Shown here in pieces: positions 9,947 to 27,685 of a DNA stretch of 39,995 nucleotides. The notes beneath the pieces are model-generated. The model was not told where the DNA came from, ran no database searches, and saw nothing but the letters and a program-made list of their open reading frames with translations. Every line of letters starts with the position of its first letter. Position 1 is the stretch's first letter. The position numbers and the translations under genes are program-made. The stretch is from contig CP070755.1 in NCBI GenBank assembly GCA_020348885.1, forward strand, positions 1,855,886 to 1,895,880, in the 5' to 3' direction. The stretch is from Candidatus Coatesiibacteriota bacterium. GTDB taxonomy: Bacteria; RBG-13-66-14; B26-G2; WVWN01; G020348885.

Positions 9947-10633
9947 GTGAATACGAATGCTTTTTTAACCGTAACAGCGATTTCGGCGTCTCTGCTAGGA
10001 TTAATAGGCTGCGGCGGCCCCGCCGAGAAGTTCATCTGCGGGGATTGCGGCGCCGAGTTCGATAGCGAGGAGGAGTTGGACGCCCATATGAAAGAAACGC
10101 ATCCGCCGGAACCGCCCGACGAACCCGTAACACTATCCGACGAAGCGATGGAACTTCCGGCGGGTACAACGGTGGCCGTGTTGGAGTTGGAAAAAGGCGG
10201 CGTTATCGAATTCGAGTTGTTAACCGAGGAGACTCCCGAAACCGCCGGGAATTTCGTTACGTTGTGCGACGAAAAGTTTTACGATGGATTGGCGTTCCAC
10301 CGGGTGGTCAAAGGCTTCGTCATCCAGGCCGGCGACCCGACCTTCGTCGGCGGTGAACCTGTGGATGTGACGATTCCCGAGGAGCCGGACGCGCGTAAAT
10401 TCAAGCGCGGTGCGGTTTCGATGGCCCGAATGGCTACTGAGGACGAGTCGGGCAATACCGTCTACGGCGGGACCAGCGGCAACGAGTTCTTCATAACCAC
10501 GGGCGAAGCGTCCCATCTTGACCCGGACTTCTGCGTGTTCGGCTGGGTAATTACCGGTATGGACACGGCCGACATCGTAGCCCAGGGTACCATTATCAAG
10601 CGGATACGGGTCATCGAAGTACCGCCCGAGTAA
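9947..10633 (+). CDS. Cyclophilin-type peptidyl-prolyl isomerase, predicted lipoprotein with a C2H2 finger
   Basis: The protein should isomerise prolyl bonds outside the cytoplasm. It begins with a lipoprotein signal ending in lipobox LIGC (Cys22). Directly after this comes a classical C2H2 pattern, C31-x2-C34-x12-H47-x4-H52, then a Pro-rich linker, then a cyclophilin domain over about 72-228. Active-site segments are present: FHRVVKGFVIQAGD, GNEFFITTGEA and DFCVFGWVITGMD. A zinc finger on an exported lipoprotein is unusual. It is the first of three tandem cyclophilin paralogues and lies in the same gene run as lgt, which would lipidate it. Start is GTG with a perfect ribosome binding site. 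The isomerase family is secure; zinc binding is inferred from the pattern. Confidence 0.9.
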   Translation: MNTNAFLTVTAISASLLGLIGCGGPAEKFICGDCGAEFDSEEELDAHMKETHPPEPPDEPVTLSDEAMELPAGTTVAVLELEKGGVIEFELLTEETPETAGNFVTLCDEKFYDGLAFHRVVKGFVIQAGDPTFVGGEPVDVTIPEEPDARKFKRGAVSMARMATEDESGNTVYGGTSGNEFFITTGEASHLDPDFCVFGWVITGMDTADIVAQGTIIKRIRVIEVPPE

Positions 10634-10724
10634 CCCCCGTCCGATGAGTAGGAGGGAATACGTAATCGATATATCCTAACCGCGGTCCGGTTTACGGCCG
10701 GGCCATACCGAGGTGATTTCGTAA

Positions 10725-11300
10725 ATGAAACGGATTCTGATGGTAATTACGGTAGCCGCGATATTGCTGGCTTACGCCGCTTACGGCGCCGACACGCCCG
10801 AGCTTTCGGACGAGGCTTTGGCCCTTCCCGCCGGGACGCCCGTCGCTGTCTTTACGATGGCCGACGGCAAAACCTTTGAGATAGAGTTATTCCCGGACGA
10901 AGCGCCGGCGACTACCGGGAATTTCGTCGAACTGGTCAACGACGGCTACTACGACGGTATCGAGTTCCACCGGGTCGAGGGCTGGGTAGTTCAGGCCGGT
11001 GACGCACGCACCGCCGGGCGGGAGGAGTACGTCCACTACATTGAGCAGGAGTCGGGCGAACGCGGGTTCGGCCGGGGCGCGTTTTCGATGGCCCGGCTGG
11101 CCGCTCCAAAGGACGATGGTACTTACGAGTATAAAGAGACCAGCGGCACCCAATTCTTCGTGATAAAAGAGGGCGGCGAACACCTGAACGGTAACTTCTG
11201 TGTCTTCGGCTGGGTAATCGCCGGGATGGAGGATATCGATGCTCTGTCCAAGGGCGACACGATAGAGGAAGTAACGATCGTGGAGGTACCCGGAGAATAG
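10725..11300 (+). CDS. Secreted cyclophilin-type peptidyl-prolyl isomerase
   Basis: This 191-residue paralogue of the preceding gene has an N-terminal signal peptide of about 21 residues ending AAYGA and no lipobox Cys. The cyclophilin domain follows at once. The motifs FHRVEGWVVQAGD, GTQFFVIKEGG and NFCVFGWVIAGMED keep the Arg and hydrophobic residues of the active site. It shares with its neighbours a pre-domain stretch of the form LSDEALALPAGTPVAV. The ribosome binding site is GAGGTG. The next gene begins 2 nt after the stop, so the two are co-transcribed. It probably acts in the periplasm on unfolded envelope proteins. Confidence 0.9.
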   Translation: MKRILMVITVAAILLAYAAYGADTPELSDEALALPAGTPVAVFTMADGKTFEIELFPDEAPATTGNFVELVNDGYYDGIEFHRVEGWVVQAGDARTAGREEYVHYIEQESGERGFGRGAFSMARLAAPKDDGTYEYKETSGTQFFVIKEGGEHLNGNFCVFGWVIAGMEDIDALSKGDTIEEVTIVEVPGE

Positions 11301-11302
11301 TT

Positions 11303-11887
11303 ATGCGGCCCTACGCGGCGGCCCTGGCGACGGTTATGACGTTGGCGTCGGTATCGGCATCGGCGGTCGAAGCGCTTGAACCGATATACGTACTTAGCGC
11401 CGCAGCGTATAGACTTCCGCCGGGAACGCCGATAGCGGTCGTTGAACTGGCGGGCGGGTCCACCGTCGAGATCGTATTATTAGAAGACGAAGCGCCGCTC
11501 ACGGCGGCACACTTCGTGAACCTCGCGGAACGGCAGACCTACAACGGTACAGTATGGAACAGGGTGGTGCCCGGTTTTGTCGTACAGGGGGGCGCGCTGT
11601 CGGCGGTCGGTCGATTCGACGAAACGCCGGCCCCCGAACGCGAGATAAACGACGAGGTTTGTACGCGAGGCGCCGTCTTTTTAGCCCGAACGGTCATCCC
11701 CGAAGGAGCCGATGGTTATCGGTACGCCGAAACCCTGGGCGACCAGTTTTGCGTTCTTCTCAACGACGCCCTCTACTTAAACGACGACTTCACCGTCTTC
11801 GGCCGGGTCATTTCGGGGGTGGAACTTCTGGACGACGTGGAAGAGATGGAACCGATAACGAGTGTAAGAGTCGTACGAGTTCCTTAA
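11303..11887 (+). CDS. Secreted divergent cyclophilin-like protein
   Basis: The third tandem paralogue has 194 residues and a signal peptide of about 20-23 residues. The fold-defining segments remain (GTVWNRVVPGFVVQGG, GDQFCVLL, FTVFGRVISGVE). Two active-site positions are altered: the usual FHR is WNR and the second Phe of QFF is Cys. The catalytic Arg is kept, so activity may be reduced or specificity shifted rather than lost. The ribosome binding site GGAG lies across the stop of the preceding gene. The lgt gene starts 29 nt downstream. Confidence 0.85.
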   Translation: MRPYAAALATVMTLASVSASAVEALEPIYVLSAAAYRLPPGTPIAVVELAGGSTVEIVLLEDEAPLTAAHFVNLAERQTYNGTVWNRVVPGFVVQGGALSAVGRFDETPAPEREINDEVCTRGAVFLARTVIPEGADGYRYAETLGDQFCVLLNDALYLNDDFTVFGRVISGVELLDDVEEMEPITSVRVVRVP

Positions 11888-11916: not shown

Positions 11917-12672
11917 ATGCATCCTATTTTATTCGAGTTCGGCGGTCTTCGAATCGGCAGCTTCGGCGTAATGATGGTGATCGGTTTCGTAGTATGTTGG
12001 CTGCTATTCCGGTCGGAGTTGAAGCGGAAAAAGCTGAAGTTAATAGATACTGATATGCTGTTGGGCGCGATGGTCGGCGGCATCGTGGGCGCGAAAGCCT
12101 ATTACCTGATAGAACACTGGTCGGTGTTCGTCGCCGACCCGCTCGGCTCGATATTCAGCGCCGCCGGCCTGGTATGGTACGGCGGCGTCGCCGGTGGGTT
12201 GATCACGTGTATTATAATTATAATTATCCACCGGCAGCCCCTGCGGCCTTACGGCGACGCTGTGGCGCCGTCGCTGGCGATCGCCCTGGCGTTCGGCCGC
12301 ATCGGTTGACAGCTCGCCGGGGACGGAGACTACGGTCCCCCCACAGACTTGCCCTGGGGAATGTCGTATCCTAAAGGCGTCGTGCCGACGTTCGAGAACG
12401 TCCATCCCACGCCGATATACTCGGCGCTGCTTTTCTTCGGCTTGTTCCTCCTACTATGGTTCTTGCGAAAAAAAGAAGGGCCGGCCGTCGGGTGGCTATT
12501 CCTCGTATATGTAATAGGGACGGCCGTAATACGCTTTTTCCTCGAATACGTACGGACGACGCCGGAAGTTTTCCTCGGTTTTACGTTGACCCAACTAATA
12601 AGTATCGGGATGATACTGACCGGCGTTATCTGGCTAGCGAAGATGTTCTGGGCGAAGAGAAGGGCGGCGTAG
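11917..12672 (+). CDS. lgt: Prolipoprotein diacylglyceryl transferase with in-frame TGA, candidate selenoprotein
   Basis: Lgt moves diacylglycerol from phosphatidylglycerol to the lipobox Cys of prolipoproteins in the inner membrane. The frame starts at ATG 11917 (AAAGAGGAC before it) with HPILFEFGGLRIGSFGVMM and runs to FGRIG. It then meets TGA at 12307-12309 (codon 131), and continues in the same frame with QLAGDGDYGPPTDLPWGMSYP and the later membrane segments to TAG 12672. Read through, it is 251 residues, a normal Lgt length, with all motifs in order. Many Lgt proteins carry Cys at this exact position (GRIGC), so TGA most plausibly encodes selenocysteine. A stem-loop 9 nt downstream supports this. 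Alternatives are a one-base nonsense mutation or a sequencing error. Flanking genes use TGA as a normal stop. Confidence 0.85.
12319..12340 (+). promoter_or_regulatory. Candidate bacterial SECIS stem-loop in lgt
   Basis: GGGGAC (12319-12324) pairs perfectly with GTCCCC (12335-12340) around a 10-nt loop that begins GG. The loop starts 16 nt after the TGA at 12307-12309. Known bacterial SECIS hairpins lie immediately 3' of the UGA and have a G at the start of the apical loop, so spacing and loop fit. The hairpin is inside coding sequence that must also encode AGDGDYGPP, so chance pairing is not excluded. Confidence 0.6.
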
Positions 12673-13210: not shown

Positions 13211-16200
13211 TTAACGGGTTCCGTTGTTACCTACAACTCCCAACTCGTCGATCCTGGATTTGAACTTAGCGGCGGGCAACGTCTCGTATAAATCCCGATA
13301 ACCGCTGACCGCTTTCGCTTTGAAATCGGGGTCGCGAGTTATTTTGTATAGTTCGTAATAAATGTCGGCAGTTTCCGTTTCTTCCAGTTCGTCTTTCAGT
13401 AGGGCTTTAAGCTCTTCAGTACCGGTTATTTCGTCGGAAGCGCTTTTAATTTTGGCTCGCAGAATCTTGCAGCCGAACAACGTGTCCCGGCGTCTAACCT
13501 CTTCCGCTAGTTTAAACGCTTCTTCGTTTAGTTTTTCAGCTTCGAGGATTTCGCCAATTTCGTAGTGTATTTCCGCTTTTTCGTTAAGCGCTGTACAAAG
13601 GTAGTATTTTAAGCCGTATTTCGTCAACCCTTCGATCGCTTTAGTATAGTATGCCAGCGCTTGATCGAATTCGTAAACGGCTTTGGACGCGCTGGCTATA
13701 CCCAAATATATGACGTTGATACTCGGTTCGTCGCCCAATTCCTCGGCGGTTTCCAGAGCCCGGCTGAAAGCCCCTGTCGCCGTTTCGTAGTCCCCGAACG
13801 TCAGTTCCATATTGGCGATATTACTCAACGTCTGACATATGTTCTGCTTGTCGCCTAGCTCTTCCGAGAGCTTCAAAGCCGTCTTAAAATAAGAGGTCGC
13901 GTCCGCCAATGCGCCGGAGCCGGCGGCCGCGGTCCCGAGGCACGTCGCCGCGTTTCTTATCATTCTCTTGTCGCCCAACTCCCGCGCGATGTCCATCGCC
14001 GCTTCGTAAAATTCCAGCGCTTCGGCATAATCGCCCTGTCTTCCGTGAACGTTACCTATACATATGTACGCGTTGTGGATGTAGCTTTTATCGCCGAGCG
14101 ATTCCGCCGCGTCGAGCTGCGTACGCCAGGAATCCATCGCTTTTCCGTAGTCGCCTTGCATAGCGGCAATAATGCCTACTTCGCCGGAAGTACGCGCGAC
14201 GCCCAACAAGTCGTCCAAGTCGGAAAAGGTACCGAGAGCTCGTTCGAGGAGAGTGTACGCTTCGCCGAAGTCCCCTTTTACCCGTAAGAACGCGCCGAGC
14301 GAATATTCCTTTTCGGCGACCAACCGCTCTTCACCCGACTTCTTGGCGAGTTCTAAGTTGCGGCGGCATAATTCTTCGGCCCGCGTCCAGTCCCCCGTTA
14401 ACTGCAGTATACCCGCGATATTTTCCTGAACATCTATTACCTCCTCGGGATTTTGGATGTAGTTCGATAGCCGTTCGTATAGATCTAGCGCTTCTTCGTT
14501 TTTATAGTTCTCTTTCGCGTAATCGCCGGCAAGGCTCAGGTACTCTTTGGCCTTGGCGGCGACGCCTCCTTTCTCATAATGAAACGCGACGTCCGTGTAA
14601 TGGGGTTTGTCGTTGCCGTATACCGCTTCGACGGCTTCGGCGGCGGTCCTATGTAGTTCGCGGAGCCGGCTTCGCAGCTGCATATCGTACGCTGTGTCCC
14701 TCATCAACGCGTGTCGGAAGATATACGACGCTTCCGAGACGGCCAACCATATCCGCTCGGCTTCGCCCTCGAGCAGGGTCGGTTCGACGTCCTCGCCTTT
14801 AAGCATCCCTGTTAGCACCGGGACGTCTATTTCGCGCCCGAGGACCGCGGCCGTCTGGATCAACGCTTTCAGATCCCGCGACAATCGGTCGAGTCTTGCG
14901 ACGAGAACCGCTCGTATCCCGCCCGGCACCTCGACTTCTTCCGAGGTAAGTGAATACCATCCGTCGCGGATTTCGATTAAGTCGTTTTCGGAAAGATATA
15001 AACAAAACTGCTCGACGAAGAACGGGTTGCCTTCGGTCCTGAATTCGATAAACGCCAACAGCTTATCGTCCGGCGGAAACCCCAAACGTGCTTTAATCAA
15101 ATCGGCCAGCAAAGCCGGCGGTAGGTGGTCGAGAGTAAGTTCGCCGGTGGAAATCGTATCGTCCAGCGCCAAAACCGGTTTCGAACCGTCGTCGAGGCAG
15201 CGCCCCAGCACGAATATCGCGATAGGGAAGCCCTTTATCCTTTTGGTTAGTGTTTCCGCAACCGTTCTCGAGTCGTCGTCCAGATAATGGACATCTTCGA
15301 TTAACAGGATTATTGGTTGTACTAGACTTTCGGCCTTGATGAACTCTTTAAGGGCGAAAAGGGTGTTCTCGAACCGGCCTTTCGCGTCCAGCTCGTCGTA
15401 AAGAGAGCCCTCCCAGTATAGACCGACAAGAGACCCTATAATCGATTTGACGCGGGTTAGTTCGCGCGCGATGGGCCCGGCCCGGGTTCTATCGGCGTGG
15501 TTTTCCAGTCGTTCTATAAGGGCAGACCATTCCTTTTCGAAGTTGGATTCGTTTTCTCCGTAAGTATTCGCGTCCGACTGCGCGAAGTAGTCTTTAAGCG
15601 CGTACGTAAACGGGCTCATACTTTTACGTACGACGTGGTCCGGCTGGAGAACAAATATACGTACGCCCGGTTTCAGGTCCTCCGTAAGTTCGAACAGGAG
15701 CCGCGACTTCCCGATGCCGGCCTCGCCGTAAATGTAGAACACGCCGCAGAATTCGCCTTCCAAAAGCGGTTCGCAGAAGCTTCGTAGCCGCTCCAACTCC
15801 GCGCGACGGCCTACGATAGCGCCGTCGAAGAAGGATTCGTCCGGGCGCTCCGCGAGACCCGTTAACTCAAGGACTTCTACCGGCTCGGTTTTACCTTTAA
15901 ACTTAAACATGCCTTTTCGAGCGATGTCGTAGCGCCCCTTAACTTCACGGGCGAACGGCGCCGATACCCATACTTCTCTCGAGTCCGCCCTTTGCATAAG
16001 TCTTGAGGCCAGGTTGACCGTATCGCCCAGGACGGTGTACGTGGAACGTCTCTTGCTCCCAACCGGGCCCGCGTACACCGTCCCGAACGTGATTCCACCG
16101 CGGACGGGTAATCCTGTATCCCTTTTCAACTCGAAGAAGAATTCCGCGGCCCTTGCGGCGTTGTCCTCGTAAGATACGGGCGCACCGAACACCACGAGCA

Positions 16201-16981
16201 TCGTCGGGCCTTTATCGCCGAAGTCGAGTAGGTTGAAGTAGCCGCCGAGGCGGTCGGCGGTCGCAAGGGCCGCCGCGATGAAGTCGTTCAGTTCGTCGAA
16301 ATCCTCAATATCTTCGAAGGATACGAACGCCGGTACGACGTCTCGGAACTCGGCGACTTGACCGCCCGTTAAAAGGATTTCCGGCAGGAAGGCGGATCCC
16401 GCATCTTCGGGCTCTTCGTTCGTCGATTCCCCGGTTTCGGCGGGCGCGCCGTCGTCAGAGGCGGTTAAGATCGTTTCATCCAGGGCTAGTTCCCCCTCTT
16501 TACAGGTAGCCGCGGCCCGAGCGCAGTTTACGATAGGTTCGCCTTTGAAGAAGTACGTTTTACGGTCTTCGGCTCCGACGATACCCCAGTTTATCCGGCC
16601 GTACGCGAGCCCGATTCTGACCGACAGGTTGAAGCGCCCGAACTCGGTTTCCTGTGCGCCTACAAGGTCTATAACGTCTTGTATATTACGCGCGGACGAT
16701 ACTGCGTACCATGGGCCGGACTGGAAAACGGCCGTAAACGCATCGCCGGCGAAACCCGCGACGAACCCGCCCTTTTCGTAAACGCCGTCTATAACCGGTT
16801 CGAATACTCTATTGAGTATTTCCGAAAGGATTTCGGCGCCGACCTTGCCGTGGGCCATAAGCTCTTCCGTCATAGTTGTGAAACCGGCGACATCGACGAA
16901 CATCGCCGCAGCGTCAAAGTCACCTTCGAGGCGCTCTTCACCGTAACGTTGCGTTATGAACTCGGGGATTGTCTCGGGCAT
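13211..16981 (-). CDS. Tandem class III nucleotidyl cyclase with ATPase and TPR domains
   Basis: The 1256-residue cytoplasmic protein resembles soluble adenylyl cyclases. Cyclase domain 1 (about 20-170) carries both metal-binding Asp residues, in FVDVAGFT (D30) and FAGDAF (D81), but lacks a properly spaced transition-state Arg. Domain 2 (about 205-375) lacks the first Asp but has DKGPTMLVVFG near 255 and GDTVNLASRL near 320, with the Asn/Arg pair. The two would form one composite active site. An AAA/NTPase module follows, with Walker A YGEAGIGKSRL near 417 and a likely Walker B at ILLIEDVHYLDD. TPR repeats then run from about 830 to 1215. It probably makes cAMP or cGMP in response to partners sensed by the TPR region. 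Ligand and product are unknown. A promoter lies at 17028-17056. Confidence 0.9.
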   Translation of the reverse strand: MPETIPEFITQRYGEERLEGDFDAAAMFVDVAGFTTMTEELMAHGKVGAEILSEILNRVFEPVIDGVYEKGGFVAGFAGDAFTAVFQSGPWYAVSSARNIQDVIDLVGAQETEFGRFNLSVRIGLAYGRINWGIVGAEDRKTYFFKGEPIVNCARAAATCKEGELALDETILTASDDGAPAETGESTNEEPEDAGSAFLPEILLTGGQVAEFRDVVPAFVSFEDIEDFDELNDFIAAALATADRLGGYFNLLDFGDKGPTMLVVFGAPVSYEDNAARAAEFFFELKRDTGLPVRGGITFGTVYAGPVGSKRRSTYTVLGDTVNLASRLMQRADSREVWVSAPFAREVKGRYDIARKGMFKFKGKTEPVEVLELTGLAERPDESFFDGAIVGRRAELERLRSFCEPLLEGEFCGVFYIYGEAGIGKSRLLFELTEDLKPGVRIFVLQPDHVVRKSMSPFTYALKDYFAQSDANTYGENESNFEKEWSALIERLENHADRTRAGPIARELTRVKSIIGSLVGLYWEGSLYDELDAKGRFENTLFALKEFIKAESLVQPIILLIEDVHYLDDDSRTVAETLTKRIKGFPIAIFVLGRCLDDGSKPVLALDDTISTGELTLDHLPPALLADLIKARLGFPPDDKLLAFIEFRTEGNPFFVEQFCLYLSENDLIEIRDGWYSLTSEEVEVPGGIRAVLVARLDRLSRDLKALIQTAAVLGREIDVPVLTGMLKGEDVEPTLLEGEAERIWLAVSEASYIFRHALMRDTAYDMQLRSRLRELHRTAAEAVEAVYGNDKPHYTDVAFHYEKGGVAAKAKEYLSLAGDYAKENYKNEEALDLYERLSNYIQNPEEVIDVQENIAGILQLTGDWTRAEELCRRNLELAKKSGEERLVAEKEYSLGAFLRVKGDFGEAYTLLERALGTFSDLDDLLGVARTSGEVGIIAAMQGDYGKAMDSWRTQLDAAESLGDKSYIHNAYICIGNVHGRQGDYAEALEFYEAAMDIARELGDKRMIRNAATCLGTAAAGSGALADATSYFKTALKLSEELGDKQNICQTLSNIANMELTFGDYETATGAFSRALETAEELGDEPSINVIYLGIASASKAVYEFDQALAYYTKAIEGLTKYGLKYYLCTALNEKAEIHYEIGEILEAEKLNEEAFKLAEEVRRRDTLFGCKILRAKIKSASDEITGTEELKALLKDELEETETADIYYELYKITRDPDFKAKAVSGYRDLYETLPAAKFKSRIDELGVVGNNGTR

Positions 16982-26185: not shown

Positions 26186-27685
26186 TTACGTCGCGGGCGT
26201 GGAAAAGGGCCTTACGAGTTTACCTATTAACGGGTCGATTTTGCCTAGCAACGTACGGTCACTCCCGCTAAGCGGTTTTAATATGTATAGTACGCTTACG
26301 GTTATAAGGTAATATACAACGGCGGCGGCCGTAACCCCCCATAAACTGGTCGGCCGGATTATTATACCCGGGATTAAGCCAAGAAGACAAGCCGACATTA
26401 ACGAAACATTGAAACGAATCGGGAACGCCGCACGGATAACGCGAAGTTTTACTATTACGAGTTCTGTGGTTACGACGAGTAACTGCGAAATGCCCGTAGC
26501 GATAAACGCCCCTAATACGCCTAACGACGGGATTAGGAATAGGTTTAGTGTTACGTTTACGGCACCCGCCGCGAACCTTACTGCGAGAGCTGTCTTTTGT
26601 CGTTCGGTCGCGTATAATACCGTTATATGATTACCGCCGCCGAGTAGTTTAGCTAATAACATAAAAGACGCGTATGTTTGGAATAGAACAACCGCAGGTT
26701 CGTAAGCTTCCGAGAATACCCCTATGATAATGGCTCGTGCGTGGATTATGGAAAACAGGATTATAGGTAATGCGATCGCGCCGTAAGCTTTAACCGTTAA
26801 TTGCCACGCGTCACCCAAAACCGTTTCATCTTTGCTTGAAGCTTCGGCGAAAGATGCCAACGTAACGCCGATGAATCCGCTTATCAATAGCATATTGACC
26901 GTGTTCACCGATCTGAACGCTATTTCGTAATAGCCGATTTGCGCTTCGGCGACGTTAAATAGCCCAAGTAATATTATGTCGCTTTGTTTACCCAACGCAA
27001 AGTTAACCAGGTTCGTCAACCAGACCGCCACGCCAAACGATAACGCGGGGACGATGGGTATACGCCGCGGCCGCAGGTTTATATAGCTACGTCCTATAAA
27101 GACGTATATAAGTAACAGGGCCGAGTTCGTTATAAAAAGGACAAAAATGACGCCGACGATGCCGCCGCCGGACGCGAGAACTGCGGATATACCGATTAGT
27201 TGAAGGATTAAGCTGAGTACTTTTGTGAACGCCAATGTACCGAACCTGAATAATCCGGTTAGTAAGAACATAAAAAGTGCGTTTATATTTGCGACGAAAA
27301 TGAACGGTATAGCCAAACGTATGAGGTCGCCGAGGCCCGGGCTTTTCATGATAACGCTGATTGGGTCCGAGAGCAGGAACGCCAATCCGGCGATAACCGT
27401 CAGGATGATAATTCGGAAAGCCAAAAGCGATGAGAATAGGGAAGACTGTCTAGTTTTATCGCGCGAATCCTTCGGGATTAAAGCGTTGAGGGTTTCTTCG
27501 AATCCGAAATTCGCGAGTAAGGCGAACAACCCGCAGAAGGTCATTACTATCGCGTATTTACCGAACAGATCTGGGCCTAGAGAACGGGTTAAAACCACCG
27601 ATATGGCGAACGTAAGTCCGAACTCGGTCAAACGGGATGCCGTATTTATTATAAAACCCTTAAAAGTTTTTTTCGCCAGCGACAT
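26186..27685 (-). CDS. Polysaccharide flippase, Wzx-like (MOP superfamily)
   Basis: This 499-residue integral membrane protein has about 12-14 segments. It begins with the typical ASRLTEFGLTFAISVVLTRS and SLGPDLFGKYAIVMTF region of oligosaccharide flippases and should move lipid-linked repeat units across the inner membrane. It lies between a small unknown gene upstream and the Wzy-like gene downstream, all on the minus strand. Like wzy it is AT-rich compared with its flanks, which hints at lateral transfer of the pair. The family call is strong. Confidence 0.92.
   Translation of the reverse strand: MSLAKKTFKGFIINTASRLTEFGLTFAISVVLTRSLGPDLFGKYAIVMTFCGLFALLANFGFEETLNALIPKDSRDKTRQSSLFSSLLAFRIIILTVIAGLAFLLSDPISVIMKSPGLGDLIRLAIPFIFVANINALFMFLLTGLFRFGTLAFTKVLSLILQLIGISAVLASGGGIVGVIFVLFITNSALLLIYVFIGRSYINLRPRRIPIVPALSFGVAVWLTNLVNFALGKQSDIILLGLFNVAEAQIGYYEIAFRSVNTVNMLLISGFIGVTLASFAEASSKDETVLGDAWQLTVKAYGAIALPIILFSIIHARAIIIGVFSEAYEPAVVLFQTYASFMLLAKLLGGGNHITVLYATERQKTALAVRFAAGAVNVTLNLFLIPSLGVLGAFIATGISQLLVVTTELVIVKLRVIRAAFPIRFNVSLMSACLLGLIPGIIIRPTSLWGVTAAAVVYYLITVSVLYILKPLSGSDRTLLGKIDPLIGKLVRPFSTPAT

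Follow-up and report, generated by a model that had tools for sequence, protein, structure and literature searches.

Selenocysteine (Sec) occurs mostly in redox enzymes, the majority of which are soluble. Its insertion signals in bacteria (bSECIS; for example those of E. coli fdhF and bacterial selD) are hairpins that follow the Sec UGA immediately and lie within the coding sequence, for which the published model specifies an apical loop of 3–9 nt, an upper stem of 4–16 bp, a G within the first two loop positions, a UGA-to-apical-loop spacing of 16–37 nt and a minimum free energy of −7.5 kcal/mol or lower (PMC13188914, Fig. 2A); some bSECIS elements fall outside this model (PMC13188914). Neither the prolipoprotein diacylglyceryl transferase Lgt nor its Pfam family, PF01790, appears in the same review, the inventory of which comprises 119 prokaryotic selenoprotein families or subfamilies. 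In E. coli Lgt (PDB 5AZB/5AZC), Asn146 is a member of a hydrogen-bond network in the cavity (PMC8689077, PMC4728403); the N146A variant is inactive (PMC8689077), and H103Y does not complement (PMC4728403).

The window analysed here, a 39,995-nt stretch of the genome of a Candidatus Coatesiibacteriota bacterium, carries on its plus strand an lgt-family gene (11917–12672) that starts with ATG at 11917, ends with TAG at 12670–12672 and contains an in-frame TGA at 12307–12309. This is codon 131, predicted to encode Sec in the context GRIG-U-QLAGDGDYG, and standard annotation would end lgt at residue 130. The 251-residue read-through protein gives a single match to the Pfam LGT domain (PF01790; E = 1.6e-47, residues 3–240) that runs across the TGA. 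Its residues 2–250 match E. coli Lgt (5azb) in phmmer, and 5azb is also the top PDB match of its AlphaFold2 model (pLDDT 80.5, TM score 0.77). The fold, the domain and the GRxG signature are thus shared with E. coli Lgt, including Arg128 as the equivalent of Arg143. By contrast, two positions differ: in the phmmer alignment, the Asn that ends the E. coli signature GRLGN (GRLGNFINGELWG), Asn146, corresponds to Sec131 in the window protein and to Cys in its subfamily, and His103 corresponds to Tyr88. Because N146A and H103Y inactivate the E. coli enzyme, Lgt activity should not be assumed for the window protein; the protein also scores below the NCBIfam cut-offs for the lgt equivalog and is classed here as a member of the Lgt family rather than as a proven Lgt. 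Homologues often have Cys in place of Asn146, the second Lgt of the same genome among them (L001, C1:2593910–2594689; TRVGCFLNGCCYG, FYGC). As this second protein combines that Cys with a Tyr at the His103 position, replacement of Asn146 and His103 is not specific to the Sec form.

Directly after the TGA lies the hairpin to which the preliminary description had drawn attention, and its account of the primary features agrees with the sequence. The 5′ arm GGGGAC (12319–12324) is perfectly complementary to the 3′ arm GUCCCC (12335–12340; GTCCCC in DNA), giving a G+C-rich stem of 6 bp that closes a 10-nt loop beginning with GG (GGAGACUACG in RNA, GGAGACTACG in DNA; 12325–12334). Counted from the UGA, the loop opens at base 16, so that 15 bases lie between the two. 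Local folding of 12310–12350 also prefers this stem and places a G at the start of the loop, within its first two positions, as the earlier description had proposed to check: pair probabilities are about 0.95–0.98 for the six pairs and for an additional predicted inner pair, G12326–C12333, which leaves a 6-nt loop (AGACUA) above a 1×1 mismatch.

Set against the published model, the element shares with described bSECIS its position in the coding region, a G at one of the two opening loop positions (GG in the window, GA in the relatives described below, and G second in the inner-pair loop), a G+C-rich upper stem and a genome encoding selA, selB and selD. Stem length (6 bp in the window, 7 bp in the relatives) and energy (−10.4 kcal/mol for the plain 6-bp hairpin, −12.6 kcal/mol in the relatives) fall within the model's limits. 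Apart from the identity of the gene, the differences concern the loop and the spacing. The loop measures 10 nt above the 6-bp stem, or 6 nt if the predicted single G–C pair forms, compared with 3–9 nt in the model; the UGA-to-loop spacing is 15 nt in the window, 16 nt in the relatives and 17 nt to the inner loop, compared with 16–37 nt. The spacing had been described as lying within the known range; with 15 intervening nucleotides in the window, it sits at the lower limit. The relatives' elements share the one-base excess in loop size and the position at the spacing limit. Under the strict published model, none of the four elements from TGA-bearing homologues passes, and the geometry is marginal, on the edge of the published consensus or a little beyond it.

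The preliminary description also took the hairpin as independent support for recoding. In a single sequence it is weak evidence, barely beyond chance. In the GC-rich window, 5.1% of coding codons are followed by at least six Watson–Crick pairs in SECIS geometry; when this peptide is recoded at random with synonymous codons, a stem of that size and geometry arises in 10.2% of cases, and one at the exact place in 0.9%; and under a relaxed geometry a hairpin at least as stable follows 3.3% of codons. The fold energy is like that of shuffled sequence (z = 0.03 for 12300–12360, −0.70 for 12310–12350), and Rfam gave no match in the window. The probability of the stem's inner five pairs depends on the context folded, being 0.91–0.94 in 12240–12420, 0.74–0.77 in 12200–12450, about 0.47 in 12290–12390 and 0.0 in 12280–12400; some longer contexts favour a different fold. 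The claim of support gains its weight from the comparison with Cys homologues.

Across homologues, codon 131 is TGA in four (the window and three relatives), Cys in 97 and Asn in three, a distribution that makes a conserved Sec/Cys pair with at least two independent TGA sequences. The TGA-bearing relatives (G001–G003) belong to one genus, in another family of the window's order; G004, of that same genus, and G005, of the same class, have Cys. A pattern search of 386 genomes across the domain returned no TGA version beyond these four, and viral contigs yielded none. The stem is kept in all four TGA homologues, the comparison that the preliminary description had suggested, and a single Cys homologue out of 97 has it at that position (Fisher p = 1.2e-6); a relaxed SECIS model recovers four of four compared with nine of 97 (p = 1.8e-4). 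With the three same-genus sequences counted as one lineage, these values become 6e-4 and 0.011, the first of each pair being optimistic in that the place was taken from the observed hairpin. Independent support thus amounts to about two lineages, three of the four TGA sequences coming from one genus. The sole Cys homologue with the stem at this place (L133) sits on a Gemmatimonadota-like branch, and its stem is therefore probably due to chance rather than a SECIS remnant.

Codon usage within the hairpin separates the two groups in the same manner. Gly135-Asp136-Gly137 is written GGG-GAC-GGA in all four TGA forms, and the nonamer GGGGACGGA occurs in none of the 97 Cys homologues. The loop codon GGA (Gly137) is used by four of four TGA homologues compared with ten of 78 comparable Cys homologues, while GGA accounts for only 11% of Gly codons in the window and 5% in the relatives' loci. 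In a Cys homologue from the genus of the TGA-bearing relatives (L033/L061), the peptide GDGDYGVP is the same, and GGC in place of GGG at Gly135 breaks the stem. The 3′ arm GUCCCC also occurs in the three relatives, 2 nt further on, despite Gly-Val-Pro in those proteins and Gly-Pro-Pro in the window: with Pro rather than Val at codon 141, the window keeps GUCCCC 2 nt nearer through GGU-CCC-CCC. Owing to this shift in register, no fixed pair of alignment columns covers both forms of the arm. Pairwise codon-identity statistics are suggestive but weak. Taken from the aligned sequences, the synonymous choices and the register-shifted GUCCCC are signs of selection on the RNA rather than on the protein.

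The alternative that survives this comparison best is that the UGA does encode Sec and the hairpin is incidental, a by-product of the conserved GDGDYG codons and of G+C-rich composition, with SelB using another or weaker element. Equally good hairpins after 3–10% of codons, a geometry just outside the published model and the other folds preferred in some contexts all speak for such an accident. It would, however, have to account for 97 Cys homologues that mostly encode the same peptide and include only one with the stem at this place, for rare synonymous codons fixed only in the TGA forms, and for a stem that survives a register shift. We regard it as improbable, though short of negligible since the independent lineages are few (two).

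The genome itself encodes SelA, SelB and SelD, all above curated cut-offs, and its SelB has the SelB beta-barrel together with a C-terminal winged helix (SelB-wing_3). Almost the whole phylum has SelA, and each of the five nearest relatives carries a tRNA-Sec (64–71 bits). Among named records, the closest are MAGs of Candidatus Coatesbacteria together with two that bear the label Zixiibacteriota but fall in the same order; the host is an uncultured relative of these. Searches of the window's own assembly (G000) with Rfam, with a model built from the relatives and with two patterns did not find a tRNA-Sec; in the parts of the assembly inspected outside the window, gaps of 100 N recur at intervals of about 7 kb, and the absence is uninformative because the gene may lie in one of them. 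The selD gene of the genome (L029, C1:267282–268208, minus strand) has an in-frame TGA at its own Cys/Sec site (VTCAG-U-ASK) and is a second selenoprotein gene; a hairpin of 6–7 bp whose loop starts with G lies about 20 nt downstream of that TGA.

A genuine stop at 12307, leaving a pseudogene or a 130-residue protein, with translation perhaps restarting at TTG 12349, finds some encouragement in the 107-residue open reading frame that begins at this TTG. Such a reading is very unlikely: the same TGA is present in four genomes, the Lgt domain and the predicted fold span it, and the downstream part stays in frame, with mainly synonymous change and constraint like that upstream. Purifying selection is indeed similar on the two sides, the comparison of L032 with L035 giving 22 synonymous and 15 non-synonymous codon differences downstream of the TGA and 21 and 20 upstream. 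Equally slight is the chance that the TGA specifies an amino acid other than Sec through a reassigned code or near-cognate readthrough, to which the missing tRNA-Sec of the assembly might point, given homologues with Cys (97) or Asn (3) and never Trp, Gly or Arg, the presence of selA, selB and selD, and a selD with TGA at its Cys/Sec site; code reassignment as such was rejected on the Cys homologues and on the use of TGA as the terminator of two of the 20 long open reading frames in the window.

The best explanation, to which we assign a probability of roughly 0.9, is that the hairpin at 12319–12340 is a bacterial SECIS within an Lgt-family coding sequence that lets SelB place Sec at UGA 12307. 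The SECIS-like reading put forward initially is thus supported, chiefly by the contrast between TGA and Cys homologues. Upon arrival of the ribosome at UGA 12307, SelB carrying Sec-tRNA(Sec) would dock on the hairpin and deliver Sec, and translation would continue to the TAG at 12670–12672, yielding a membrane protein of 251 residues and 28 kDa. In this protein, Sec131 would stand where the subfamily has the Cys of its motif GRxGCQL(A/S)GDGDYG, at the substrate-cavity position of E. coli Asn146. The hairpin, its conservation in TGA as compared with Cys homologues, the Cys/TGA pairing and the presence of SelA, SelB and SelD are supported by the sequences; from these we infer SelB binding, Sec insertion and any catalytic or redox gain that Sec may bring. 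Within the cavity, Sec may act as a better nucleophile, in acid/base chemistry or in a redox function.

A tree of 86 homologues unites the class's six sequences, four with Sec and two with Cys, in a single supported group surrounded by Cys outgroups; the G004 sequence, a Cys form, is nested among the Sec forms of its genus, and G005 and the window sequence join on long branches. This topology allows a Cys-to-Sec gain followed by one or more Sec-to-Cys losses in which the SECIS would have been erased by synonymous change; Sec may also have been gained separately. Conversion of Sec to Cys has precedents in other families (PMC1794560).

With its Sec/Cys pair, several TGA sequences, SECIS-like hairpin and SelA, SelB and SelD, the case resembles the listed prokaryotic selenoprotein families, and the Lgt family is probably a new selenoprotein family that uses a known mechanism. 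In its full form, a previously unlisted family consisting of a Coatesbacteria-related membrane enzyme of the Lgt family, with Sec at the Asn146 position and a SECIS with a 10-nt loop, the proposal appears likely, if less firmly so than the SECIS itself. No paper linking selenoproteins with prokaryotic diacylglyceryl transferase was found in a search that left out subscription papers and preprints, so that priority is unproven. Sec would here sit in the active cavity of enzymes from a family of membrane lipid transferases that is not known as a redox family, which would imply either a nucleophilic or acid/base role or a redox role for this branch of Lgt. The locus also suggests that conservation can extend to bSECIS elements that depart slightly from the published model, and strict searches would miss such elements.

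Three tandem cyclophilin-like genes, one of them PPIase-like by NCBIfam, lie directly upstream of lgt (9947–11887), a neighbourhood not seen in the flanks of the relatives' genes. On the minus strand, 13211–16981 encodes a 1,256-residue protein resembling kinase/cyclase fusion proteins of TOMM systems and TPR regulators. Two further TGA-split frames occur in the window, at 27201 and 38328.
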